A program made the translations under genes and the position numbers. Shown here piece after piece: positions 1-12,471 of a stretch of 12,471 nt of DNA. The stretch is from contig JALVGO010000106.1 of assembly GCA_027029065.1 (NCBI GenBank), forward strand, positions 1 to 12,471, read 5' to 3'. Under the pieces are notes generated by a model that ran no database searches, was not told the DNA's origin, and saw nothing but the letters and a program-made list of their open reading frames with translations. The DNA comes from Sulfurovum sp. Lineage in GTDB: Bacteria; Campylobacterota; Campylobacteria; Campylobacterales; Sulfurovaceae. Every line of letters begins with the position of its first letter. Position 1 is the stretch's first letter.

Positions 1-359
1 GGTACATCCGGTCTTGGTCCGACAAAACTCATTTGCCCGAACAATACGTTAAAAAGCTGTGGCAGTTCATCGATCTTTGTTTTCCGGAAAAAGGCACCGC
101 TTTTGGTAATACGGCGGTCTTGGCTTATCGTCACAGTACTTTTCACTCCCAAAACCGGTTTCATCGTCTTGATCTTCCACACATAAAACGGCTTGCCATG
201 CTGCCCGATACGCTTTTGTACAAAAAGTCCGTTACTTCGGGTTTCTACAGAAGCCACTGCCCATGCAATGAATATCACAGGCAGTGTTACGACAATCCCA
301 ACGATGGCAAAGATTATGTCAAACAGACGTTTTTCTATGCGTTCCCTGCGTGTCAGCAT
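1..359 (-). CDS. pglC: PglC-like phosphoglycosyltransferase, 3' end cut by window edge
   Basis: Translating the minus strand from the ATG at 359-357 gives 119 codons plus two bases before the window ends, so the C-terminal part is missing. The fragment has a basic N-terminus, a hydrophobic re-entrant membrane helix at about residues 13-37, the IGQHGKPFYVWKIKTM segment (about 51-66), the acidic dyad in KIDELPQL (D97, E98) and the FVGPRPDV motif (112-119). These are hallmarks of the monotopic bacterial sugar transferase family (PF02397, PglC/WcaJ type). In that family the Asp-Glu dyad transfers a sugar 1-phosphate from a UDP-sugar to undecaprenyl phosphate at the inner membrane. In C. jejuni PglC the sugar is diNAcBac; here the sugar cannot be read from sequence. 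The start codon follows the pglB stop with no gap (TAG then ATG), so translation is probably coupled. PglC is favoured by this position and by the short N-terminus without extra helices. Confidence 0.88.
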   Translation of the reverse strand, partial: MLTRRERIEKRLFDIIFAIVGIVVTLPVIFIAWAVASVETRSNGLFVQKRIGQHGKPFYVWKIKTMKPVLGVKSTVTISQDRRITKSGAFFRKTKIDELPQLFNVLFGQMSFVGPRPDV

Positions 360-2513
360 CTATTTTTTCAATCGGTATATCTTACTGTATGGAGAAGAGA
401 CCACAAGCTCAAACAGATTTTTATCATATTTACCCATAATAAACATCTGCACATACATAGAGTTGAATGTATCGATATCCATGATCACAAATTGACCATA
501 GCTCTTCATATAGATCACAATATAGGCTCCTGTAGGATGATACCGTTGTGCCTGAACTGAAGTTTCACCATTCTTTCTATTTTCGGTAATCATAAAATAT
601 CTTACTGGTACCCGTTGCTTTCCAAAAAGCAGTTCCCCTTTTTGAGTATCAAATCCAATGCCGTTTGAGAAGGCAAGCACACCATTGTTGTTTCGAATTG
701 CCCTTGTTGGATAAAAAGCAAATTTTCGCTCAGGTTTGCCCGTTGTCAAATCAAGATTGCCAAAAACCGATACGGTAGGAAAGATATTGAGCATCCTGTA
801 GGGCATATACAAATAGATATCTCTTGTTTTTTTTGGAAGCGGGTAAGTACCGTTTTCCAGTTTTGCTAACAGCTCATTGGGATCTGCCTGATCCTTCTCT
901 CCGTTTTTAAACAGCGTATTCGTGATAATGGAATAGTTTGAATCAACATAGGTTTCTACAGCAACTCTTGCCAGATTGGCAGCAAGCTGAGGAGAGTCGG
1001 TCTGCATGATTTTTGAGACGATAAAGTTGTCATTATTGTGTTTTCCTCCATCAATCAACGTGGAAGTATCGGAGTAGTACCAGATAGGGTATCCGTAGTC
1101 CCACCATGCAATGGTATAGTCTTTCCCGGAAGCCATTTTGTCAAGCTTGACCAAATCTTCAACTTCTGCTTTGTTCAATACTGTCGGTACCTTGTAACCG
1201 ATAATATGTGTAATATTTGGATAGATCATAGCAGCAGTTGCCACCGCCATCAATGCGTATTTGATACGCCTGTCTTTGAAAAAATCTCCAACAACATCAA
1301 AAAGATAGACTGCACTCAGAGCAGCGACCGGCACGGCATACACAGTAAAGCGCAGTCCTCCCCAGTGGGCAAAGATACCGATACCAATGAGAGGAAGCGC
1401 TAGAAGAAATGCCGGTTTCCGTATTACCAGCAGTATGTATCCGATAACGGAAATAATAAACCCTATTGCCGAACCGCTCATCCGCTGGGAGATACACGAC
1501 TGCCCCGGTACCAGGAAAAACGGTATCTTCCCTGCTTCCCGAACCGTTTGGTTGACCGCATAGAAATGTAACCCTGTATCAGAGGTACCCGTCTCCACGT
1601 AGCTAAATACTTTAGCCCAGATAAGTCCAAACACATTGCCCATAAACAAAAAGAGTACAAAGAAGATACCGCTTGCGATTATTAATGTCTTGATATTCAT
1701 CATGTCTCTTTTTTGCTGCAACCAACGGTATAGAGCCAATACCAAAATAATGCTCATAATATAATGATAAGGGGTGGGAATACCAAGTACCTGTAGTGGT
1801 ATTAGTGACAGAAACACCAAAAGTAAGGAGGCATAGGTCATTTTTTCTGCATGATGAAACCAGACCATATATAGGGCATAAATAATCCCCATCGCATAGA
1901 CAATCGCCTGCCCCTGTTCATACAGGAACGGATAGACTACAATGGCTACAGCCGCATGTAGTGCTGATCGGAGATTGAAGTCATGTGTACTTTTCATCAG
2001 GAAATAGAGAATAAACATGGGAGCCATAGCAGAGAACATATCGGTATCGTAATACCCTATCATCGTACGGTTATAGTAACTCCATGCAATACTGCCAAGC
2101 AGTGCGGCAAAAAATCCCCAAACGGTTTTACCGTACAGTCGCGCAATGAGTATGACAGGAACAACGACAAGACTTGAGATAACAGCTGGTAGATAGAGTA
2201 TAATGGTTTCAAGAGCAAAAGGTGTTATTTTTGCCAACAGCGCTGTAAACGCTACCGTACCGTATGCCCACATATCGGGAATACGCGGATTGGCATCATG
2301 TACCCCCTGCAACACATGCTGCGCACCTGAGGCGAAAAAGTATCCGTCATTGGTATTGATCATCAACTGCCCGTTCCAAAAAAATTCAGGATGACCCGAT
2401 GCCCAGTTTAGCCAAATCAACCGGATAGCAAAACTAAAAATATAGGCAATCAGCATCAATCCAAACAGTTGAGAAACAGAAACCTGCTTCATGTTATATT
2501 CATTTTTTTTCAT
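360..2513 (-). CDS. pglB: Oligosaccharyltransferase PglB (STT3 family), N-linked protein glycosylation
   Basis: The 717-residue protein matches the roughly 713-residue length of Campylobacter PglB. It has an N-terminal multi-helix membrane part (about 1-430) and a C-terminal periplasmic domain. The expected catalytic and metal-binding acids are visible: D56 in MINTNDGYFF, D156 and D158 in GYYDTDMF, and E326 in the external-loop segment NQTVRE. The acceptor-binding WWDYG motif is at 470-474. An MI-type motif is at MPYRMLNIFPT (M574, I577), resembling Campylobacter enzymes. By family knowledge it transfers an undecaprenyl-pyrophosphate-linked glycan en bloc to Asn in D/E-X-N-X-S/T sequons in the periplasm. 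The start ATG overlaps the stop of the upstream GT2 gene by 4 bases (ATGA). An A8 run covers codons 2-4 just after the start; a second in-frame ATG lies at codon 8 (2492). The protein carries one such sequon itself (D524-S528). All key residues are intact, so it is likely active. Confidence 0.97.
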   Translation of the reverse strand: MKKNEYNMKQVSVSQLFGLMLIAYIFSFAIRLIWLNWASGHPEFFWNGQLMINTNDGYFFASGAQHVLQGVHDANPRIPDMWAYGTVAFTALLAKITPFALETIILYLPAVISSLVVVPVILIARLYGKTVWGFFAALLGSIAWSYYNRTMIGYYDTDMFSAMAPMFILYFLMKSTHDFNLRSALHAAVAIVVYPFLYEQGQAIVYAMGIIYALYMVWFHHAEKMTYASLLLVFLSLIPLQVLGIPTPYHYIMSIILVLALYRWLQQKRDMMNIKTLIIASGIFFVLFLFMGNVFGLIWAKVFSYVETGTSDTGLHFYAVNQTVREAGKIPFFLVPGQSCISQRMSGSAIGFIISVIGYILLVIRKPAFLLALPLIGIGIFAHWGGLRFTVYAVPVAALSAVYLFDVVGDFFKDRRIKYALMAVATAAMIYPNITHIIGYKVPTVLNKAEVEDLVKLDKMASGKDYTIAWWDYGYPIWYYSDTSTLIDGGKHNNDNFIVSKIMQTDSPQLAANLARVAVETYVDSNYSIITNTLFKNGEKDQADPNELLAKLENGTYPLPKKTRDIYLYMPYRMLNIFPTVSVFGNLDLTTGKPERKFAFYPTRAIRNNNGVLAFSNGIGFDTQKGELLFGKQRVPVRYFMITENRKNGETSVQAQRYHPTGAYIVIYMKSYGQFVIMDIDTFNSMYVQMFIMGKYDKNLFELVVSSPYSKIYRLKK

Positions 2514-3319
2514 CGTAACCTCTTATATAAAAATTGTTTCAATTTTGACGGTGCCATATTGACAAAAAACAGTGCAAAAGCATAAAAATAGTACCGTTTA
2601 TTATATCTTAATGCATTTATAACCAAGATTCTATCTTGCAAGTCATACCATGCCTTCCTTAGACCGCCTCTTCTGCCAAAAAACGCTCTACCCACCCGCA
2701 CACGTACCAAGACTTCCGAGATATTAGCAAACTGACACCCTGCAGCAAAGCCCTTCATCCACAACAATGTATCTTCATTTGTGGGGGATGTAACCGGATA
2801 CAATCCGGCTTTTTGAAAAAACCGCTTGCGAAAACAGGCACTAACATGAGCTAGAGGTACCCTTTTTTTGAAAAAACGGAACATCTCTTCGTGATATAAT
2901 GGATACTTCACAATTTTATGATACTCAATTTCCTCTCCAAACTCTTCGATAAAAGTTCCGCAAACATCAATATACTTGTTTTTCTCCATAAAATCTATCT
3001 GTTTTTTGAAACGCTCTTTGTTGCACACATCATCCGCATCCATTCGGAAAAGATATTCATATCCACGATCAAGCGCTTCCTCTATCAGTTCATTGAGTGA
3101 TACCGCAAGCCCTTTGTTCTCCTCTCTTTTTGAGAGATAAACAATCTTCCTGTCTGCATACGCCTGTTGTAAAAACGCTTCCAGTCTGCTGTCTATATCT
3201 CCGTCTATTTTTATCAAAATATCCGCTTTCAAAGACTGTTCATACAGGCTTTCAAGGGCTTCTTGGACAAATTTCAGCTGATCGTTTTTATAGACCGACA
3301 ATAACACGCAACTTCTCAT
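2510..3319 (-). CDS. GT2-family glycosyltransferase (GT-A fold)
   Basis: The 269-residue protein opens with SCVLLSVYKND, the typical first strand of a family 2 GT-A transferase. A nucleotide-binding KIDGD follows at about 37-41, then the metal-binding DxD motif in FRMDADD (D94-D97) and an ED catalytic-base candidate (E182-D183 in SPTNEDTLLW). A basic, aromatic C-terminus (about 240-269) may lie on the membrane surface. The family adds a sugar from a nucleotide sugar with inversion; neither sugar nor acceptor can be assigned. It resembles small GT2 enzymes of exopolysaccharide and O-antigen loci and could play the role of PglI in C. jejuni, which also lies close to pglB, but that is inference. 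It overlaps both neighbours by 4 bases (ATGA), pointing to coupled translation with the KpsC-like gene upstream and pglB downstream. Confidence 0.88.
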   Translation of the reverse strand: MRSCVLLSVYKNDQLKFVQEALESLYEQSLKADILIKIDGDIDSRLEAFLQQAYADRKIVYLSKREENKGLAVSLNELIEEALDRGYEYLFRMDADDVCNKERFKKQIDFMEKNKYIDVCGTFIEEFGEEIEYHKIVKYPLYHEEMFRFFKKRVPLAHVSACFRKRFFQKAGLYPVTSPTNEDTLLWMKGFAAGCQFANISEVLVRVRVGRAFFGRRGGLRKAWYDLQDRILVINALRYNKRYYFYAFALFFVNMAPSKLKQFLYKRLR

Positions 3320-4371
3320 ATAATATCCCGTATCTTTCGTATCATCACAGCACTTTTGCCAAGCATATTGACTTTAAAACGGAAAAAGCTACTTTCAAAA
3401 TAGCGTTTTCTAAGCGCCTTAATCTCCTTCAGCACCTCCTCAGGTGTTGCACTTTTGCCTGTTTTGAGCGAAACATATTTAGGATACACTATATATGCTG
3501 CCGCGACCAGTTCCTCCATAGAAAGGGTTCGCTTCCTCCGATCACATCTTTGCAGATCCTCTGTCAGCCCCCAACCTGCATAAAATGGCATACCGTACGT
3601 AAAGACCTTTTTTTTGCGAAGGAGTGCTTCCATTCCCGAAAGTGAGGTAATCGTATGTACTTCATTGGCAACATCGAAGCAGCTGTCCAAACTTGCATCT
3701 GTGACTATCAAATTACACAATGCATACAACTTCTTTTCATCGACACTTCCTTCTCGTATGCCGGAAACAACATCCGGATGCGGCTTGTACAAAATAAAGT
3801 CCTTTTTTGTCGCATGCTCTTTGACTGTTTGCAGCAGTTTCATCGAGTCAAAGCCGTATCCTCCTTTTCTTATCGACATGTCATCATCGACTTGACCTAT
3901 CACCAGCTTAATATTTTTCTCCGGAACCGATATCTGTTTATCTGCCAAATGATTGTATTTTGAAATCCTGTTTTTCAAAAGAAGATCTGTAAGATTTTTG
4001 GCTCTTTCCAAAAGGGTATCATTAAACGTATTGTGATTCAATATGTGTTCCAGGTCACTCTCCTGTGTTGGATCAAAATAGATTCCTCTTGTGTCCATAA
4101 CGATAGATGCCGGCTTGAAAAAAGAGGAACCAAGACTAAGTGAACGGATAAATCCATCTTCGACAAAATAGAGTGCTATCCTCTTTTTCTTACAATACTC
4201 TTTTATTTCCATATCCTCTTTTGCCGGATACATATATACCCTTGATGTCTCGTCCAATCCTTGAGCAATGGCTTCATGCAGCGTTGAAACGATGTATCGT
4301 CCTTTTTTTTCAAAAAACGGATCAAGCAGGTACAGCCCCCATTTGGAAAAACCGACAAAAAACTGCTTCAT
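3316..4371 (-). CDS. Single-module KpsC-like glycosyltransferase (capsule/beta-Kdo transferase family)
   Basis: The 351-residue protein carries the signatures I associate with KpsC/LipA capsule proteins: EDGFIRS (71-77), a DTRGIYFDPTQESDLE segment (93-108), YKPHPD (195-200), TSLSGMEALLR (242-252), TYGMPFYAGWGLT (258-270) and an RTLSMEELVAAAYIVYPKY stretch (281-299). KpsC of group 2 capsule producers has two tandem retaining beta-Kdo transferase modules and is about twice this long; this protein is one complete module. In capsule systems KpsC extends the Kdo linker on phosphatidylglycerol begun by KpsS. Here it sits between a KpsS-like gene (4-base overlap) and a GT2 gene (4-base overlap), two genes from pglB. 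That suggests it adds a Kdo-like ulosonic acid to the lipid-linked glycan rather than building a capsule anchor. No Kdo-supply gene is visible in the window. Family membership is confident; the donor sugar and role are inference. Confidence 0.85.
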   Translation of the reverse strand: MKQFFVGFSKWGLYLLDPFFEKKGRYIVSTLHEAIAQGLDETSRVYMYPAKEDMEIKEYCKKKRIALYFVEDGFIRSLSLGSSFFKPASIVMDTRGIYFDPTQESDLEHILNHNTFNDTLLERAKNLTDLLLKNRISKYNHLADKQISVPEKNIKLVIGQVDDDMSIRKGGYGFDSMKLLQTVKEHATKKDFILYKPHPDVVSGIREGSVDEKKLYALCNLIVTDASLDSCFDVANEVHTITSLSGMEALLRKKKVFTYGMPFYAGWGLTEDLQRCDRRKRTLSMEELVAAAYIVYPKYVSLKTGKSATPEEVLKEIKALRKRYFESSFFRFKVNMLGKSAVMIRKIRDII

Positions 4372-5537
4372 ACCATTTCCTCAAAAATCTTTAGAAACAT
4401 CTCTTCTCCTATCTCTGACTCCGGGTAGACGATGTTTGGCAAATACCCCATTATATATTTTCTAACCCTTTCTTTATCAAAATATTTATAATAGGCATCT
4501 CCAAAAACAACAACCTCTTTGTCAAAAATCTTCGCTTCAAGTCCGACTGTCGAATTGTTGATGACAACTTTATGTGCATTTTCAATCAACTCAAAAAAAT
4601 CTCCACTCACCAAAAAAACATCCTGCTCTTGCAGAAAATGCCTGATGACTTCAATCTCTTTGGCATCTTCCTCACGCGGATGGGGTTTAATGTAAAGAGC
4701 GGCATGCTCCTTTCTGGCTATGGTCAACGCCTCCTGAATCACTGCCTCATTATTGTAATTGCTGTAAAGCTTTATTTGGGAGTCGTTTCCTACCTGCAGA
4801 GGCAGTAAAATATACTTTTTCGCCATATCTACCTCATCAAATGGTAGATGTACAAAGTTATTGGAGACTCTTTGCTGTACAAGCTTTAATGGATTTCTTC
4901 TATCCTCCCGTATAAGATCATATATCAGATAGCCCGCAAAATCGGTAAAAACGTAACTGGGTATTTTGCTTTTGAGTTTACCGCCTCTCTCCTTTTTTTT
5001 CTCTCTATAAGATGCCCGCCAATCAAGAAATGCCGTTTCATCATACACATACCCGTCTAAAATCTCCGGCTTTTTTAAAAGGATCGATTCTCCGGAAATA
5101 CCACACGGATCGATAAATATCCTATTTTCTATATTGGATATTTCAAAATATCTTGTACGTATTCCTTTACTTTTGACATACTCACCTAAAGCCCTTTCTA
5201 TCGTCGTCGTTCCGTTCCATATCCACATCATATCGATCTTCAACTCTTTTAGCTGTGCCCAGATATCGTTTGCAATCTGCACTGCCTCATCGAAAGTATG
5301 GTAGTTGTTTAAAACTGAAAGACTTTTTTGCAAAAAAGCATAGTCTTGACACTCTCGCTCTGCTCTGATATTGCGCAACAACAGAGTACGATCTTTGGGT
5401 AACACTCTATAAGCTGAAAGTTTATGGGTGACAAAACGGTATGTAATGTGATACTGTTCAAACAGAGGCATGAAACAGGAGAAAAATTTTGCTCTGTTAA
5501 GCGAATCGACATAAATTACTAAATGATCTGGAACCAT
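4368..5537 (-). CDS. KpsS-like capsule polysaccharide biosynthesis protein (GT-B glycosyltransferase)
   Basis: The 389-residue protein has the KpsS/capsule-synthesis pattern (PF05159-like): LPLQVGNDSQI (245-255) followed by a Ser/Asn-rich stretch, IKPHPREE (283-290) and VINNSTVGLEA (325-335) near the end of the nucleotide-binding domain. KpsS normally adds the first beta-Kdo to phosphatidylglycerol in the cytoplasm. The N-terminal half (about 1-190) is more divergent, which fits a different acceptor. The ATG start overlaps the end of the upstream GT4 gene by 19 bases, and its stop overlaps the start of the KpsC-like gene by 4 bases, so the KpsS-like/KpsC-like order and coupling seen in capsule loci is kept. 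No capsule export genes (KpsDEMT) are in the window. The most economical reading is that the pair adds sugars to the N-glycan precursor, but a capsule role elsewhere cannot be excluded. Confidence 0.8.
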   Translation of the reverse strand: MVPDHLVIYVDSLNRAKFFSCFMPLFEQYHITYRFVTHKLSAYRVLPKDRTLLLRNIRAERECQDYAFLQKSLSVLNNYHTFDEAVQIANDIWAQLKELKIDMMWIWNGTTTIERALGEYVKSKGIRTRYFEISNIENRIFIDPCGISGESILLKKPEILDGYVYDETAFLDWRASYREKKKERGGKLKSKIPSYVFTDFAGYLIYDLIREDRRNPLKLVQQRVSNNFVHLPFDEVDMAKKYILLPLQVGNDSQIKLYSNYNNEAVIQEALTIARKEHAALYIKPHPREEDAKEIEVIRHFLQEQDVFLVSGDFFELIENAHKVVINNSTVGLEAKIFDKEVVVFGDAYYKYFDKERVRKYIMGYLPNIVYPESEIGEEMFLKIFEEMV

Positions 5538-6562
5538 TTTTCCATAACCTTCTCTGGAGTATAACGTGTAACACTCTCTTTTGATTTTTGAGCCATTTTT
5601 TGTAAATATTTGTGATCACCTGTCAGTACTTTCAGTTTTTTGACAAACATATCTACCTTTCCAAAAGGAATTAAAAAGCCGTCTTCTCCATCCCCTATCA
5701 TCTCTTTTGGACCGGTCGGTACATCGAAGCTCACTATGGGTAAACCATAGTTTTTTGCCTCCAAAAGCACCATAGGAAAGCCCTCTTTTCGGGATGTAAG
5801 TATGAAAATACTCGCATTCAGATAGAACGCTTTCGGCTCAGGTATTTCCCCTTTGATATCAACATTATATCCTGTCAATTGTTCTTGTAATTCTTTTTGC
5901 ATCTCTCCTTTGCCAACGATAACAAAATACCATGCTTTATTGTCAAATTTTTTTACAATATCAATAAGCAGGTCTACCCCTTTTACCCTCTCGAGACTTC
6001 CCACAAAAAGAATCTTTTTATGTACCAAAGAGGAGACATCCGGCGTATTTTCTATAAAATTTGGTATCACAACAACATTTTTCAAACCAAATGCTTCATA
6101 AAACTCTCGATCAATCTCTGTCAAAACAACCAGTTTATCCAGTCTTGGATAAAGACGTTTTTTTAAAAATTGCGTTATACCTCTTCTCTGAAAGGCGGTA
6201 TGCTCACTTCCTATTAACCTATTACTGTTCTCCTGTAACGCCAGTACCGTTATAAAATTGATAACCGTTTCTATACTGATCACTGTCGCATTTTTTATAT
6301 TTTGCTGTTTCAATTTTCTGTAAAACATATAGTACCACTGTATCAATTTTACTTTATTGGCAGAAAGGCTATGTACACTTTCAAGTTCAAGGTCGATGAT
6401 ATCCTTTTTTACCTCTTTATAATAACACTCATTTGCAACATTGAGGTGCCCCGTTACAATCTTTACACCATATCCACTCCGTTTAAATTCACAGTAAAGA
6501 TTAATCGCTACACGGCTTAATCCTCCGACTTTTGATATATCATTGATGATAAGGTATATCAA
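5519..6562 (-). CDS. GT4-family glycosyltransferase (GT-B fold)
   Basis: The 347-residue protein has the N-terminal acceptor domain with a glycine loop (SKVGGLSRVA, 10-19) and the C-terminal donor domain beginning with KILFVGSLERVKGVDLLI (183-200). The conserved EX7E motif is E260 to E268 in EGFPMVLLEA, followed by GLPIVSFDVPTGPKEMI. This is the GT4 architecture shared by PglA, PglJ and PglH of the C. jejuni pathway and by amylovoran-type transferases; the exact donor is not readable. The start is TTG at 6562-6560, chosen because a strong ribosome site (AAGGGG) ends about five bases before it and the protein then begins at the first beta strand (IYLIIND). It overlaps the upstream GT2 gene by 23 bases and the KpsS-like gene by 19. 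The gene is one of the most AT-rich in the window: 16 of 60 bases are G or C at 6301-6360. Confidence 0.9.
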   Translation of the reverse strand: MIYLIINDISKVGGLSRVAINLYCEFKRSGYGVKIVTGHLNVANECYYKEVKKDIIDLELESVHSLSANKVKLIQWYYMFYRKLKQQNIKNATVISIETVINFITVLALQENSNRLIGSEHTAFQRRGITQFLKKRLYPRLDKLVVLTEIDREFYEAFGLKNVVVIPNFIENTPDVSSLVHKKILFVGSLERVKGVDLLIDIVKKFDNKAWYFVIVGKGEMQKELQEQLTGYNVDIKGEIPEPKAFYLNASIFILTSRKEGFPMVLLEAKNYGLPIVSFDVPTGPKEMIGDGEDGFLIPFGKVDMFVKKLKVLTGDHKYLQKMAQKSKESVTRYTPEKVMEKWFQII

Positions 6563-7469
6563 ACTCTCCCCTTATGCCCTGCGTAAACCCTTTTAACGGT
6601 GATAAACTTCTGTATTTTACACTTTGTAAAATCGCTATAGCAACCCTATGCAGCAAAGTTACCGTTTTGTATGTAGATATCTCCATCAAAAAATAGGTAA
6701 AATTTCTATTTACATAGAAAAGATACATATCTGATTTCGTATCCTTTTTTATTTTTTTGATAAACTCTGCTTGGTTTGTATATATGACATTTGTATATTT
6801 TGAAGCCATATAGCCATAATAAGCGTCATCTCCAGATAGAAAAAACTCCTTTTGGGGGTATCCTGCTTTTTTTACAATATCCCGAGAGATCAACATTCCT
6901 TCAAAACATCCATAATTGACCATACTAAAGCCTTTGTCTTTAAAGTTCTCTCGTTCACGGACAATCAGTCCGTATTTGTCACAAATGTATCCATTCCAGG
7001 GAAACAATTCTCCGTTTGTAAATTTTTTAATCGGATGAATACACCCCGAAAAGCTTCTGTATTGCAACATCTTTTCTAACGCATCAGATTTTGGTTCAAC
7101 ATCATCATCCATCAGCCAAAGCCACGCATACCCTTTTTCATAGGCTCTTTTCATCCCTTCATAAAATCCACCTGCACCACCGGTATTTCTATCCATTTTA
7201 ACATAATGGAATGCTACGGTAGCCGTATTAGTCAAATTAGAAACAATACAGGTTTTTTCCCATGGTCTGTCTATATCTTGAGGCGGTAACGCTTTTATAT
7301 ACCCCTTTTCAAAAAGTATCTTTTCTGTTTTATCCGTAGATGCATTGTCTATTAAATAGATGGATGCAATTTCTTTTGTCTGCTTCAAAAGCCCTTCTAG
7401 ACACTCCACCAATAACGCTTTACGGTTGTATGTTACCACAACAGCACACACTTTTTCTTGTTTATTCAT
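6540..7469 (-). CDS. GT2-family transferase, probable galactofuranosyltransferase (GlfT1-like)
   Basis: The start chosen is the ATG at 7469-7467, which overlaps the glf stop codon (ATGAATAA). A longer reading to 7541 would add 24 residues of non-family sequence encoded inside glf. The resulting 309-residue protein begins CAVVVTYNRKALL and has LIDNASTDKT (39-48), NTGGAGGF (95-102), the metal-binding DDDV (121-124) and a downstream LSGDDAYYGY (211-220) that probably holds the catalytic Asp. The NxGGxGGF plus DDD pattern is typical of the GT2 branch that includes mycobacterial GlfT and Gram-negative galactofuranosyl- and rhamnosyltransferases. The adjacent UDP-galactopyranose mutase gene supports UDP-galactofuranose as donor; that step is inference by context. 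It would act on the cytoplasmic face, extending the lipid-linked glycan. Confidence 0.85.
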   Translation of the reverse strand: MNKQEKVCAVVVTYNRKALLVECLEGLLKQTKEIASIYLIDNASTDKTEKILFEKGYIKALPPQDIDRPWEKTCIVSNLTNTATVAFHYVKMDRNTGGAGGFYEGMKRAYEKGYAWLWLMDDDVEPKSDALEKMLQYRSFSGCIHPIKKFTNGELFPWNGYICDKYGLIVRERENFKDKGFSMVNYGCFEGMLISRDIVKKAGYPQKEFFLSGDDAYYGYMASKYTNVIYTNQAEFIKKIKKDTKSDMYLFYVNRNFTYFLMEISTYKTVTLLHRVAIAILQSVKYRSLSPLKGFTQGIRGEFDIPYHQ

Positions 7470-8610
7470 ACAGCTTTTCCTCAAAAACATCCAAAGCACG
7501 TTTAACGACATCATCCATATCGTAGTATCTGTATTCTGCAAGTCTACCTACAAAAATGACATTTGCAAACTGTTGAGCCTCTTTTTTGTACTTCTCATAA
7601 AGCTCATGGTTTTGTTGGGTAAACACCGGATAAAAAGGGAGGTCTCTTTTTGCAATATACGTTTTTGGATACTCTTTAAGGATTACTGTCGTATCTGTTG
7701 AAGCAGGGTGGATATGTTTAAACTCCGTTATCCTTGTAAAGTCGTAATCGTTTGGATAGTTAACAGTTGCCGTTTCCTGAAAGCTGGTCCTATTCATTAT
7801 CTCAAATACCAAATCCAAGCTTCTGTATGGCAAAGGACCGAACTTAAAATCAAAAAGTGCATCTATCATTCCCGTGTAGACAACCTTTCCGTTAAAGACT
7901 TTATCATTGAGATAGACCTTTCCCTCACCAAAATCAAATCGCAGCAGCGTATTGCAATCGGTACCAAGCATAACCTCAATATTTGGATGATCCAGCATCT
8001 TTTCAAACACTTTGGTATACCCCTCTTTTGGCACAACCTGATATCTATCGGTAAAATATCTGTCATCTTTACTTATGCTTACCGGAACCCGGGCTGTTAC
8101 TTCAGGAGCTATCTCCTCAGGACTGACCCCCCACTGTTTGGCGGTATAGTGTTTAAATATCTTCTCATACACAAAGTCAGAGAGAAATTTCAGATCCTTA
8201 TCACTCTCTTTTCTTAACGTCAATATGGGAATCTTTTCACCATATCCGTATTTTGACAGCAGCTTCTTCTCTATTGTATTTGCCAAAGAAAAAGGAAAGA
8301 GTGCATACATTGTATTGAGATTGAAAGGGATTGGTACTTTTTGACCATCAACAAACGCAAGCACTTTATGGTGATATAACTCCCACTCGGTAAAACGGGA
8401 AAGATAGTCAAACACCGCTTTACTGTTCGTATGAAAAAGATGCGGACCATATCGATGAACCAGTACATCTGATGCTTTTTCATCATAACAGTTCCCGCCT
8501 ATATGCTCCCGTTTCTCCACCACAAGCACCTTTTTACCAAGTACGTTTGCAGCCCTTTCAGCAATCACACTTCCTGCAAATCCGGCACCAACCACAATAA
8601 AATCAAACAT
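7462..8610 (-). CDS. glf: UDP-galactopyranose mutase
   Basis: This flavoenzyme interconverts UDP-galactopyranose and UDP-galactofuranose in the cytoplasm. The FAD-binding motif VVGAGFAGSVIAE is at the N-terminus, followed by EKREHIGGNCYDE, the HRYGPHLFHT segment near the flavin, the KHYTAKQWG substrate segment, VPKEGYTKVF, and the C-terminal flavin contact VGRLAEYRYYDMDDV. The length of 382 residues is normal for prokaryotic Glf. Two in-frame ATGs compete: 8616 and 8610. The second is preferred because the ribosome site AAGGGA ends seven bases before it, while it is almost adjacent to the first, and because MFDFIVVGAG is the usual start of the family. The gene overlaps the end of wzx by 8 bases and the start of the next GT2 gene by 8 bases. 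It supplies the donor for that GT2 enzyme. Confidence 0.96.
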   Translation of the reverse strand: MFDFIVVGAGFAGSVIAERAANVLGKKVLVVEKREHIGGNCYDEKASDVLVHRYGPHLFHTNSKAVFDYLSRFTEWELYHHKVLAFVDGQKVPIPFNLNTMYALFPFSLANTIEKKLLSKYGYGEKIPILTLRKESDKDLKFLSDFVYEKIFKHYTAKQWGVSPEEIAPEVTARVPVSISKDDRYFTDRYQVVPKEGYTKVFEKMLDHPNIEVMLGTDCNTLLRFDFGEGKVYLNDKVFNGKVVYTGMIDALFDFKFGPLPYRSLDLVFEIMNRTSFQETATVNYPNDYDFTRITEFKHIHPASTDTTVILKEYPKTYIAKRDLPFYPVFTQQNHELYEKYKKEAQQFANVIFVGRLAEYRYYDMDDVVKRALDVFEEKLYE

Positions 8611-9895
8611 ACACATTTCCCTTTATAATATCTATCCCCGTTTTTTGCAGATAGAGCAACATCCCAACCGTTATACAAAACTCCACTCCCACAACAGAAA
8701 CAGCCGATCCGACCTCTTCAAAAAGCGGTACCAAAACCAATGATAGCAAAATATTCAGTACGCTGCCGCTTATCAGTATGTTGCTAAAGGCTTTTTTCCT
8801 ATCAAAATTCAGCATGGTTTGAATCCCAAAAATATTACTCAATGCAATAATAAACGGCAAAAACGCAATAATTCTCAATACTAAAATACTTCTCTCATAC
8901 GCTACTCCCGCTATAAAATGAATGATCTGTGGCGCAAAAACAAAGAGCATCAAAGAGAGTAGAAAACTGACTCCTCCGACATAAATAGTCGTCTGTCTAA
9001 GGAAACGCATCCCTTCAGAAACATTCTCTTTAAGTTTTTTGGAAAGGTAAGGGTAGACTGTTTGCATTGTGGGGCTAAGAAGTCCCTGCACCGCCCCTTT
9101 TATCTTTTCGGCAATAGCATAGTAGCCCACTACCGTACTGTTTGTAAATATCCCAAGTATAAAGGTTGTGGAGACCGTATAGAGGCTGATCGCTATATTG
9201 GAGATAAAAATATGCCATCCATCAACCACATAATGTTTCAAAACTGATATGTTTTGTATTTTCAAACGGACATTGAAATCTTTTCCAATAATGTAAAATG
9301 CTATCAAACCGGCACTTATTTGCCCCAATGCATTAAACATCGGTACTTTCCAGTAATCACCTTCCCCGTCTATAAACACAAATATAGCGATGGTGAAAAA
9401 AAGTTTGGCTGTAATGTTTAGAAAAGTAATGTACTTCATCCGCTCCATTCCCTGAAAAAACCACTGAGGAAAGAGTACCTGTCCTATGACCATCCCAAAT
9501 GTCAAAATATAGATCTCAAAATGCGCCCCAAACATTTCAAATTCAAAAAGCAAAACCAAAAGTAAAAAAAAAGACACACACATTAAAAAGAGTTTTATAA
9601 GAATCACACTGCTGAAAATTTCATTGAGTTTGACTGGGTTTGCCCTATGAATACTAACCTCTCGTGTAGCAGTCAGGTTGAACCCATAATCCGTGAGTAT
9701 ACTAAAATACGCCACAGTCGCACCCGCAAAAGCTAACAAGCCAAACTTCTCGACCCCCAATACCCTAACAAGGTAGGGGAATGTGATCAAAGGCAGCAGA
9801 TAGTTCGCACCCTGCAATAGACTTAAAGAGAGAAAATTGGAAAATAATCTTTTTTTTTCTTTGCTATTTGTAAAGCTTTTTATTTTTTCTTTCAA
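8603..9895 (-). CDS. wzx: Wzx-type flippase of the MOP superfamily
   Basis: The 430-residue, strongly hydrophobic protein has about twelve predicted membrane segments. It opens with the typical Wzx/RfbX signature LQGANYLLPLITFPYLVRVLG followed by LTDYGFNLTATREVS. It should flip undecaprenyl-pyrophosphate-linked oligosaccharide from the cytoplasmic to the periplasmic face, where PglB uses it. C. jejuni uses the ABC transporter PglK for this step; no ABC flippase gene is in the window. The start is TTG at 9895-9893, 17 bases after the stop of the upstream cytochrome-like gene, with only a weak GGG ribosome site in the gap. No nearby ATG is in frame, so the start is less certain than the gene. 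An A9 tract on the coding strand at 9850-9858 lies about codons 13-16, a possible slippage site. Confidence 0.92.
   Translation of the reverse strand: MKEKIKSFTNSKEKKRLFSNFLSLSLLQGANYLLPLITFPYLVRVLGVEKFGLLAFAGATVAYFSILTDYGFNLTATREVSIHRANPVKLNEIFSSVILIKLFLMCVSFFLLLVLLFEFEMFGAHFEIYILTFGMVIGQVLFPQWFFQGMERMKYITFLNITAKLFFTIAIFVFIDGEGDYWKVPMFNALGQISAGLIAFYIIGKDFNVRLKIQNISVLKHYVVDGWHIFISNIAISLYTVSTTFILGIFTNSTVVGYYAIAEKIKGAVQGLLSPTMQTVYPYLSKKLKENVSEGMRFLRQTTIYVGGVSFLLSLMLFVFAPQIIHFIAGVAYERSILVLRIIAFLPFIIALSNIFGIQTMLNFDRKKAFSNILISGSVLNILLSLVLVPLFEEVGSAVSVVGVEFCITVGMLLYLQKTGIDIIKGNVYV
9850..9858 (-). repeat. A9 homopolymer in the 5' end of wzx
   Basis: Nine consecutive T on the plus strand (nine A on the coding strand) fall within the first twenty codons of wzx, encoding part of the SKEKKR segment. 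A gain or loss of one base would truncate the flippase early. The AT-rich base composition makes chance occurrence quite possible. Confidence 0.6.
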
Positions 9896-10491: not shown

Positions 10492-10524
10492 TTTTGAAAT
10501 TTGACAAGAATTGGAAGATTGAGA

Positions 10525-11343
10525 ATGAAACAATCCATCATTTTACTTTTACTGATACTGGCAGTCTTTATCCACGCCAGAACAATTGATGCCATTGCTC
10601 TTATCGTCGAGGGTGAGCCTGTCACAACTGCCGAGATACAGGCTGTAGAGCAGCAGACAGGTGTCTCTCACAAAGAGGCTATAGATCTGCTCATTCAGGA
10701 CAGGCTCCAAAAAGCGGCAATGAAGAACATCACCGTTGCTGAGGAAGAGATCGACAAAGAGGTTGACCGTATCGCGAAGCAAAACGGGATCAGTGTAAAG
10801 AAGATGCAGCAGATCCTGCAACAACAGGGAACCTCATGGAGCAAATACCGCAACACCATCAGAGATGCATTGAAAAAGCGAAAGTTTTTCCAGGAGAAGG
10901 TAGCCAAAAACCTCCCCTCTCCTACTGATGATGAACTGAGACTCTTTTATCAGAACCACAAAGAGTCTTTTGTCATCCCCTCAACCATCAAGGTAACAGA
11001 GTATGCCGCAAAAACAGAGTCTGCGCTCAAGAAGCTGATTGCAAAAGGTTCGGCAAAAGGGGTAACTGCCAAAACAATGACCAAACAGACAAAAGGGATG
11101 AACCCGGCACTGCTCTCCATGTTCATGCAAACACCCGAAGGGCAATTTACCGCTCCTATGAATGCGGGAGACAGATATATTGTCTATAAAATAGGCGCAA
11201 AGTCCGGACGGACACAGATGCCGTTCGAGGCTGCAAAGGGGGCAGTTGCCGCACGCTGGAGACAGCAGCAGCAGGAAAATGCCATCAAAGACTATTTTAA
11301 GAAGATGAAAACAGAAGCCAATATTCGCATATTGCGCAAATAA
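10525..11343 (+). CDS. SurA-like periplasmic chaperone / peptidyl-prolyl isomerase family protein
   Basis: The 272-residue protein has an N-terminal signal peptide (about 1-19, hydrophobic core [12 protein letters not shown]). A SurA-type N-terminal domain follows: [34 protein letters not shown], then the charged helices to about residue 130. The C-terminal region (about 150-225) corresponds to a parvulin domain but is reduced, ending in [16 protein letters not shown] long Gln/Lys-rich helix closes the protein. SurA-like proteins guide outer-membrane proteins through the periplasm. The start is the ATG at 10525, preceded by GGAAG six to eight bases upstream, rather than a TTG at 10501 that would spoil the signal peptide. 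It is followed 26 bases later by dcd, an arrangement close to C. jejuni Cj1289 and its dcd neighbourhood. PEB4/CBF2-type foldase is the alternative assignment. Confidence 0.88.
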
Positions 11344-11369: not shown

Positions 11370-11939
11370 ATGGGTCTAAAATCAGATAACTGGATACGTG
11401 AAAAATCATTGAAGGAAGAGATGATCTCCCCATTTGTAGAGGGGCTGGTCGGAGAAGGGGTTGTCAGCTACGGACTGAGCTCCTACGGGTACGACATCCG
11501 TGTCAGCGACGAGTTCAAGATCTTTACCAACATCAATGCCGAAGTGGTCGACCCCAAAGATTTCAACGAAAACAATGTGGTCGATTTCAAAGGGGATGTC
11601 TGCATCGTACCGCCAAACTCCTTTGCACTGGCACGCACTGTTGAGTACTTCAAAATGCCCAAAGACACGCTTGCTATCTGTCTTGGCAAAAGCACCTATG
11701 CGCGCTGCGGTATCATCGTAAACGTGACACCGTTTGAACCCGGATTTGAAGGACACATCACCATCGAGATCTCCAACACCACACCCCTTCCGGCAAAGAT
11801 CTATGCCAACGAAGGGATCGCCCAGGTACTCTTCTTGCAAGGGGATGAGCAGTGTGAAACCACCTACTCTGACCGCAAAGGAAAGTACCAGGCACAAACA
11901 GGCATTACCCTGCCGCGCATTTTGAAAAAAGAGGCTTAA
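11370..11939 (+). CDS. dcd: dCTP deaminase
   Basis: The 189-residue cytoplasmic enzyme deaminates dCTP to dUTP, feeding dTMP synthesis. Diagnostic segments are SSYGYDIRV (37-45), GKSTYARCG (106-114, with S108 and R112 as expected active-site residues), [17 protein letters not shown] (120-136, with E133 the expected catalytic Glu) and the C-terminal [10 protein letters not shown] (174-183) that closes over the nucleotide. Length is as in Campylobacter Dcd. The ATG at 11370 has an AGAGGA ribosome site four bases upstream and lies 26 bases after the surA-like stop, so the two are probably cotranscribed. The gene is GC-richer than the glycosylation genes (33 of 60 bases at 11461-11520), consistent with core genome. 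Confidence 0.97.
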
Positions 11940-11972
11940 CACCTCCTCCCTTCCTGTAGAACACCTTCCCTT
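11938..11972. repeat. Imperfect direct repeat just after dcd
   Basis: Two copies of AACACCT followed by TCCCTT occur 22 bases apart (AACACCT at 11938-11944 and 11960-11966; TCCCTT at 11947-11952 and 11967-11972). The second copy has a two-base shorter interior. No function is evident. Confidence 0.5.
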
Positions 11973-11983
11973 ACTGCCTGTTA

Positions 11984-12052
11984 TTATAGTCTAATTGGCG
12001 TGTAAAAAAGTGTCTCCTGCTTAGGGGTCATTCCACCTAACCGAGAAGGATA
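11984..12052 (-). pseudogene. Possible C-terminal scrap of an IS3-type transposase
   Basis: On the minus strand one frame reads YPSRLGGMTPKQETLFY and then stops at TAA (11986-11984). The LGGMTP pattern resembles the extreme C-terminus of IS3-family OrfB transposases (RPHSxLGGMTP). Upstream the same frame is closed by stops, so only about 22 codons remain. The short length makes a chance match possible. Confidence 0.25.
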
Positions 12053-12053
12053 T

Positions 12054-12104
12054 ATGAACCGTTACTTACTGCATACTCGCAAGAGCTATTTATCTCGAAT
12101 TTAA
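12054..12104 (+). CDS. Possible mini-ORF with good ribosome site (16 codons)
   Basis: ATG at 12054 follows AGAAGGA with three intervening bases and opens 16 codons (MNRYLLHTRKSYLSRI) to a TAA. The peptide is basic and not recognised. It may be a leader peptide, a broken gene start or chance; no known gene follows within the window. Confidence 0.15.
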   Translation: MNRYLLHTRKSYLSRI

Positions 12105-12199
12105 ATCCTTTGAGGTTGTATCCTCCGATAAGTATAAAGGTCAGTCACCACCTTGAAAAAAGCATAACACTGATACCAAAAGTAACAAATAAGCCCTTG

Positions 12200-12232
12200 A
12201 GTTATTCCATGGATTTATCCTCTGGAATAATT
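12200..12232. other. Stem-loop with nested inner stem
   Basis: TTATTCCA (12202-12209) and TGGAATAA (12223-12230) are perfect inverted repeats. The stem extends by a G-T and an A-T pair to 12200/12232. Within the 13-base loop GGA (12211-12213) can pair with TCC (12218-12220). No T-run follows on either strand, so it is not a standard intrinsic terminator. Confidence 0.5.
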
Positions 12233-12289
12233 GCCTTTTGGCTCCTTTTTGAATGTTGATTAGGACACTACAATCTCCGGCACACATTA

Positions 12290-12415
12290 TCAACAAGTAA
12301 CATTAAAACGCTTGCCTATTTCTTTACGAAGCCAAGGGCTTTGACGGCAGAGCATCAGCCGATCGGATTCGAAGCGATTTGGTGCAGGTTGATTTGCAGT
12401 ATCGTTTCTAATCAT
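12290..12415 (-). CDS. Doubtful 41-residue hypothetical ORF
   Basis: ATG at 12415-12413 opens 41 codons ending in TGA (12292-12290). The peptide contains PAPNRFESDRLM and QSPWLRKEIGKRF and matches no family I recognise. There is no ribosome site in front. The overlapping plus-strand frame is also open for a similar length, so this may be chance or a gene remnant. Confidence 0.15.
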   Translation of the reverse strand: MIRNDTANQPAPNRFESDRLMLCRQSPWLRKEIGKRFNVTC

Positions 12416-12464
12416 GGTCAGGATTTAGGATTTAGTCCCCGCCCTTTTTCTCTGCTATTGATCA

Positions 12465-12471
12465 CCCCCCC
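12465..12471. repeat. C-run reaching the window end
   Basis: The last seven bases are all C, so the full tract length is unknown. Long C or G tracts act as phase-variation switches in Campylobacterota, but a tract of seven is not by itself diagnostic. Confidence 0.35.

Follow-up and report, generated by a model that had tools for sequence, protein, structure and literature searches.

The window, by which we mean the whole 12,471-nucleotide stretch of Sulfurovum sp. DNA analysed here, carries in positions 1-9895 nine open genes on the minus strand, in the order wzx-glf-GT2a-GT4-KpsS-like-KpsC-like-GT2b-pglB-pglC (Table 1). From wzx to pglB the successive frames overlap by 14, 8, 23, 19, 4, 4 and 4 bp in frame coordinates (GT2a starts at the ATG at 7469, a longer ORF beginning with TTG at 7541), and the pglC start is the base directly after the pglB stop. 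The original prediction of seven overlapping genes, wzx to GT2, upstream of pglB was correct in order, families and overlaps, as was its placing of a PF02397 PglC immediately downstream of PglB. Because the frames overlap and pglC abuts the pglB stop, the spacing from wzx to pglC speaks for one transcription unit; a pglB transcribed apart, which the prediction had named as counting against it, is not what the 4-bp overlap with GT2b and the abutting pglC suggest.

Table 1. Features of the window and the evidence on which each assignment rests
Feature	Coordinates	Strand	Evidence
wzx, MOP-family flippase, 430 aa	8603..9895	-	PF01943 E 2.2e-59; 98% identity to G001 protein
glf, UDP-galactopyranose mutase, 384 aa	7462..8616	-	TIGR00031 496.8 bits, cut-off 303.75; PF03275
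GT2a, GlfT1-like, likely galactofuranosyltransferase	6540..7469	-	NF050113 67.6 bits, cut-off 330
GT4, distantly PglH-like, 347 aa	5519..6562	-	PF00534; NF050056 PglH 118 bits, below cut-off 600
KpsS-like beta-Kdo-type (or nonulosonate) transferase, predicted, 389 aa	4368..5537	-	PF05159
KpsC-like single-module beta-Kdo transferase, predicted, 351 aa	3316..4371	-	PF05159
GT2b, EpsE-like, directly 5' of pglB, 269 aa	2510..3319	-	PF00535; EpsE model 81.2 bits, below cut-off 450
pglB, N-oligosaccharyltransferase, 717 aa	360..2513	-	PF02516, PF21436, PF18527; 5ogl E 3.9e-123
pglC, Und-P phosphoglycosyltransferase, cut by window edge	1..359	-	PF02397
Hybrid remnant, cassette 5' edge: RCC1-like N-terminal part and cytochrome-like last 102 residues	9913..10437	-	
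surA-like, 5' flank marker of fixed site	10501..11343	+	PF09312, PF13145; flank order
dcd (dCTP deaminase-like), 5' flank marker of fixed site	11370..11939	+	PF22769; flank order

Of the genomes compared, the one nearest to the window is G001, a Sulfurovum MAG in which the matching block lies on contig C204 (JALWHT010000204). There, pglC (199 aa, against the 119 aa present in the window) is followed by pglE (366 aa), pglF (590 aa), comEA and gltX, which correspond to sequence outside the window edge, and on the other side of the block lie a gene for a multihaem cytochrome-like protein of 798 aa and, beside it, surA and dcd. The names PglE and PglF are presumptive, being given via relatives of 45-54% identity in loci of a control genus that we take, from its gene order, to be Campylobacter-like; surA and dcd of the window were tested with Pfam, and cytochrome, comEA, gltX and topA were named by eye. 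The hybrid gene at the 5' edge of the cassette is an in-frame fusion, the cytochrome-like protein being whole in G001, and is perhaps the scar of a 5' crossover or else an assembly join. The tail of the window beyond dcd (11935-12471) has no DNA match in 144 loci, G001 having a topA-like gene after dcd, and is possibly a rearrangement or a contig-end artefact.

The expectation of an intact PglB with its catalytic acids and WWDYG was borne out by its Pfam domains, by alignment over its full length with the PglB of C. lari (5ogl), and by its residues: D56, R149, D156, D158 and E326 match the Campylobacter catalytic set, and WWDYG begins at residue 470. These five residues and the first tryptophan of WWDYG are present in all 50 aligned PglBs, the window included (50 of the 55 loci described below, five being left out for length), and R344, at the position of C. 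lari R331 and the one feature seen that bears on transfer to D/E-X-N-X-S/T, is arginine in 49 of the 50 and proline in one. The roles of some of these residues are named in PMC6025236. The protein misses the cut-off of the PglB equivalog model NF050801 (516.6 bits against 1300), yet the match spans the full length, and the cut-off may be tuned to close Campylobacter orthologues. Judged by these features, the window system would belong to a known mechanistic class, the PglB-type bacterial N-oligosaccharyltransferases. PglB was detected in 60 of the 78 genomes of the genus and in 36 of the 40 of good quality. Loci L091 and L092 hold second pglB copies whose products, at 799 and 816 aa, contain additional residues; contamination of the genomes concerned is estimated at 6-7%.

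The best-known bacterial N-glycans are those of Campylobacter, and like the window operon the C. jejuni pgl locus is a single operon-like locus with enzymes of the PglB, PglC, PglE and PglF type. However, where C. jejuni has the ABC flippase PglK the window has Wzx, a PF01943 flippase in keeping with the exporter that had been predicted, and instead of PglA/J/I it has glf and the GlfT1-like, KpsS-like and KpsC-like genes. The claim that the gene set is unlike that of Campylobacter is thus supported, there being neither PglK nor the PglA/J/H/I set in it; GT4 is distantly related to transferases of the control loci (24-31% identity). Glf clears its curated TIGR00031 cut-off, and PF03275 occurs in six of the 78 genomes of the genus, that of G001 alone sitting on the pglB contig. 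For GT2a the best NCBIfam model is GlfT1, below its curated cut-off (Table 1), and 4 of 120 database relatives, among the matches listed, bear automatic galactofuranosyltransferase names. Given Glf and a GlfT1-like GT2, the N-glycan probably contains galactofuranose, as had been suggested. Most of the cassette is 89-99% identical to that of G001, and the N-terminal part of GT4 (window 5801-6600) is a second mosaic patch at 67-80%; the N-terminal domain of GT-B enzymes is the acceptor-binding one.

Both Kps-like proteins (PF05159) keep the QxxxD and HP motifs, and the KpsC-like protein also keeps the Glu-Asp (ED) motif together with the E. coli KpsC donor-site residues Glu66, Tyr93, Lys133, Tyr134, Asp160, Asp196 and the HP histidine. 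Both have a predicted beta-Kdo transferase fold, that of the KpsS-like protein being nearest, among the solved structures compared, to WbbB, a beta-Kdo transferase; matches that ranked lower than these transferases, to NeuC-type epimerases, PglA and polysialyltransferase, were taken as general GT-B likeness. Motifs and predicted fold are thus those of KpsC and KpsS (GT107 and relatives), WbbB (GT99) and KrkA (GT140), and from them the N-glycan probably carries Kdo-type residues, which strengthens the earlier suggestion that it might perhaps contain a Kdo-like sugar. The description of the pair as capsule-linker-type enzymes did not hold. Unlike capsule KpsC, which has two modules, the KpsC-like protein has one, its acceptor site has Tyr-Pro in place of Trp-Gly, its gene lies inside a pgl operon, and besides the operon genes G001 encodes a two-module kpsC along with a kpsS on another contig. 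In the accessible part of one report the acceptor tryptophan is called absolutely conserved across KpsC homologues (PMC10148158). Among 104 other listed relatives, the first acceptor position is W in 47, Y in 56 and F in 1, and the second is G in 91, P in 4, S in 5, A in 3 and N in 1. Replacement of tryptophan by tyrosine was therefore rejected as a unique mark, tyrosine being common among these relatives; the clade is marked by Tyr-Pro (Tyr48-Pro49 in 17 of 17 members), the proline being present in only four of the 104.

The part of PglC present in the window is 87% identical to G001 PglC and 39% to a Campylobacter-like PglC, and the full G001 protein is about 30% identical to the control-genus type. 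The PglCs form two types. Type B (62-92% identical to that of G001) occurs in 18 loci, including G001, the window and L127; pglE and pglF are visible in 16 of the 18, and 15 of these 16 stretches lack both PglD and the ATP-grasp gene. In the remaining one, L076, PglD is present together with a second PglC, of type A; the two PglCs flank pglB, and one of them is beside PglD. Type A occurs in seven loci of the genus, five with PglD and two with an ATP-grasp and HAD pair, and the control genus has PglD in 15 of 17 loci at a 35% cut, with weaker matches in the remaining two. (L053, with a type B PglC inside a 449-aa frame and without pglE or pglF, was left out of the type comparison by the length filter.) A point against the simple reading is that the cassettes of six of the 15 (L042, L044, L047, L049, L075 and L077) encode a different hexapeptide acetyltransferase (cluster c16), of which the member tested reached 82.1 bits with a NeuD/PglD-type model, below the cut-off of 160.8; the window and G001 are without it. 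At the level of whole genomes, 11 of 14 type-B-only genomes have no PglD_N match (G396 left out), and in G005, G070 and G073 such a match lies elsewhere in the genome. C. jejuni has PglD for diNAcBac, whereas in G001, which is 92% complete, none was found by PF17836, the best match of a PglD search being E 2.5e-7 over 57 residues. The linking sugar of the window type is probably not made by PglD, and, because window-type PglC mostly occurs without PglD, it may not be diNAcBac. In L079 and L085 an ATP-grasp gene and a HAD gene lie between pglC and pglE, at the possible place of pglD; to us the ATP-grasp and HAD pair recalls the Neisseria glyceramido-sugar (GATDH) pathway.

How does the window compare with the rest of its genus? 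Sampling of genomes was one per species, and 55 loci were compared, namely 53 stretches around pglB, the window and G001, with two each from G019 and G062; L086 contributes just a relative of 25% identity. Downstream of pglB, comEA or gltX is found in 43 of the 55; most of the other 12 stop early, and L073, L086 and L089 show different genes there, so that use of the site is not universal. Upstream, surA, dcd or cytochrome is seen in 18 of the 55, both flanks are seen in 16, and the 5' flank is unseen in 37, including 20 with more than 12 kb of sequence, the 5'-bounded set leaning to short cassettes. The gene directly 3' of pglB is in most loci either pglC, accompanied by pglE and pglF, or a PF00953 gene of the WecA kind. 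The latter, on the opposite strand, replaces pglC-E-F in 23 loci (L050 to L092), in which the predicted initiating enzyme differs too.

Clustering at 40% identity sorts the 506 upstream cassette genes, a total that takes in genes past the cassette where the 5' flank is unseen, into 291 families, of which 198 occur in one locus each. Among the 18 cassettes bounded 5' (window included), 114 of 153 pairs have no family in common. With the window left out, the figure for 17 bounded cassettes is 99 of 136 pairs, the mean shared fraction 0.089, and the average PglB identity of pairs of the same loci 66%. The cassette varies across the genus of the window but is conserved in the Campylobacter-like control genus, where no pair of 136 lacks a common family and the mean shared fraction is 1.0 (17 of 40 loci, with near-identical count, the same clustering and at most seven upstream genes on the pglB strand); 66 control pairs have a PglB identity of 75% or less, the lowest being 53%. 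Between G076 and G077 (10 and 30 contigs) PglB is 97% identical and two of eight cassette families are in common. Through these changes pglB keeps the 3' end of the cassette. On this comparison, we read the gene set of the window as a single member of a large pool of alternative cassettes that occupy a fixed chromosomal site.

The replacement can be followed most closely in three loci. G001 and G050 have GltX proteins that are 100% identical over the 240 residues compared, and flanks with 92.0% and 93.8% nucleotide identity, around a 7,379-bp cassette without any blastn match. The window shares the G001 cassette (93.4%) and the wzx/cytochrome 3' junction, but it has other flanks, surA being about 60-68% identical to that of G001 in most 200-base steps. 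The two PglBs are 93.8% identical over residues 1-458 and 76.8% over residues 459-717. A three-way codon alignment of PglB with 573 informative sites places a break between residues 458 and 459, with 7% of sites joining G001 with G050 to the left and 88% to the right (none of 5000 permutations was as strong). The Pfam core domain begins at residue 464, WWDYG at 470, and the solved periplasmic domain 3aag, which we take to be that of C. jejuni, aligns from residue 438; on these landmarks we place the break near the membrane/periplasm junction and read the PglB of G001, a metagenome bin in which strain chimerism is also conceivable, as a natural chimera of the window and G050 types. Between G005 (L042) and G004 (L079), a comparison that includes a one-contig genome, the membrane halves are 48% and the periplasmic halves 83% identical.

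Across 49 PglBs of the genus (L086 dropped), fitting the membrane-half data to the periplasmic-half tree costs 14.5% of log-likelihood, whereas an exchange of trees between the two parts of the membrane half itself costs 2.4-2.7%. The reverse is a weak test, the periplasmic-half data losing 5.1% on the membrane-half tree and 4.8-6.2% between their own parts. AU p-values for this conflict were set aside, as iqtree warned of too few replicates. Genus-wide, cassette sharing correlates weakly and about equally with the two halves (partial r 0.127 for the membrane half and 0.138 for the periplasmic half, with 19 and 9 of 2000 permutations as high), and the idea that the membrane half tracks the cassette better found no support; for tracking of the initiating enzyme (PglC or WecA type) by either half, the differences were only 2.5 and 1.3 points. 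Because these correlations are weak and alike, the membrane half can be said to travel with the cassette only in the trio of the window, G001 and G050.

We consider it likely that the operon serves PglB-dependent N-glycosylation and that the genes from wzx into pglB form an exchangeable cassette, replaced through recombination in its flanks. The comparison showed close relatives with conserved flanks and unrelated centres, together with a recombination breakpoint. The sugars, the order of their transfer, the function on proteins and the selective reason we infer as follows. PglF and PglE, encoded beyond the window, would make an amino-deoxy sugar nucleotide, from which PglC would put the sugar on undecaprenyl phosphate. 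Extension would be by GT2b, GT4 and the GlfT1-like GT2, for which Glf would supply UDP-Galf, and by the two Kps-like retaining transferases with CMP-Kdo or a similar CMP-acid sugar as donor. Wzx would flip the lipid-linked oligosaccharide and PglB would transfer the glycan to periplasmic Asn sequons. The wzx-into-pglB block would be replaced between lineages via flank recombination, with one crossover inside pglB by the domain junction, so that a lineage could exchange its N-glycan in the way that other bacteria switch O-antigen serotype.

Genes of these types are typical of O-antigen clusters, and the glycan might serve chiefly as O-antigen or as another lipid-linked glycan of the cell surface, with pglB a passenger or second user. 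Export of the Wzx type fits this, as does a Wzy_C-family protein encoded elsewhere in G001 (C44), G050 and G396, and part of the lipid-linked glycan of G001 could go to LPS through it. However, no Wzy_C match was found by Pfam among the nine operon proteins, pglB overlaps GT2b and is followed at once by pglC, and it stays at the 3' end whatever the cassette, all of which makes this improbable. Another alternative, which is unlikely but carries more weight, concerns the two PF05159 enzymes, which might transfer a nonulosonate such as pseudaminic acid in place of Kdo. The invariant Glu132 of the KpsS-like protein lies in F-E-I-S-N and may match the base of KpsS1/KrkA, the positional match being inferred. 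KpsS1, in the accessible part of its description, is a retaining pseudaminyltransferase (GT118) that is 30% identical to E. coli KpsS (PMC12887879). Against a nonulosonate donor, the KpsC-like protein keeps the E. coli KpsC donor-site residues checked, and the KpsS-like fold is nearest to WbbB, in a set of solved structures that may contain no such pseudaminyltransferase.

Two further explanations concern the exchange itself. The PglB chimera and the cassette junctions might be artefacts of metagenome assembly, G001 being a MAG contig and the break lying in a well conserved stretch where reads from two strains could be joined. Yet the same cassette and wzx/cytochrome junction occur independently in the window, with other flanks, the contrast between halves recurs in the pair that involves a one-contig genome, and G076 and G077 combine near-identical PglBs with mostly different cassettes; artefact is in our view very unlikely. 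Least probable of all, and disfavoured, is that the differences are old and vertical, the outcome of slow gene loss and gain with no exchange. The weak genus-wide correlation of cassette sharing with PglB similarity would accord with descent, but the identical GltX and 92-94% identical flanks of G001 and G050 enclose unrelated cassettes, the G001 cassette is 93% identical to that of the window, and the switch inside pglB is abrupt.

Serotype switching of O-antigens and capsules by flank recombination has the same form: conserved flanks, a non-homologous centre, and crossovers in or beside the cassette. In the genus of the window, unlike in those systems, the product is predicted to reach protein Asn via PglB, and the transferase itself has a crossover. 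A bolder proposal, which we advance only tentatively, is that the N-glycan of this vent-type genus acts as a serotype, cassettes being swapped together with the LLO-binding half of PglB and the sequon-reading half staying, and that the window glycan is a new class with beta-Kdo-type residues, galactofuranose and a linking sugar without the PglD-made 4-N-acetyl group. Like the window, H. pullorum and C. fetus have PglB systems with non-jejuni glycans, and C. fetus has a variable transferase region upstream of pglB; unlike in the window, the N-glycosylation genes of H. pullorum are spread over five loci, C. fetus retains a diNAcBac-GalNAc2 core, and the accessible parts of those reports describe no Kps-like or glf genes for either (PMC6025236, PMC7313396). 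In Haloferax, N-glycan clusters differ between close strains and have been likened to serotypes, with lateral transfer of aglB a topic, but that system is archaeal and the accessible part of the report describes no cassette at a fixed site that includes a domain chimera of the oligosaccharyltransferase (PMC5867893). No description of swapped pgl cassettes or of Kdo-bearing bacterial N-glycans was found in the accessible portions of the open-licence literature, and within it the cassette swapping, the PglB chimera and the Kdo-type N-glycan enzymes look new. The locus would then pair the known PglB mechanism with a new glycan repertoire and behave like a serotype cassette, a view for which the strongest evidence is comparative. 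The genus, with different cassettes in most species compared, may offer a natural collection of N-glycan pathways together with the PglBs that match them, and evidence for natural exchange of PglB halves beside a domain boundary, and it makes diversifying pressure on N-glycans, of the kind that acts on O-antigens, a testable question.

The original prediction had also proposed a search of relatives for pglB beside kpsS/kpsC-like and glf genes. The Kps-like part was found: L127, from a different family, has the order GT4-KpsS-KpsC-GT2-pglB, and KpsS-GT2-pglB is present in L125, L126 and L046, which represent two other genera and an additional species of the genus of the window. As for glf, within the genus only that of G001 lies on the pglB contig. 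The combination of a KpsS-like gene, GT2 and pglB thus recurs across three families, and because it is found in these four loci we regard KpsS-GT2-pglB as a putative recurrent N-glycan module, which would tie a recurrent Kdo-type transferase family to N-glycosylation. Relatives of GT2b with 41-63% identity lie next upstream of pglB in L043, L046, L048, L126 and L127, and in L125 one lies upstream of pglB with two short frames in between.
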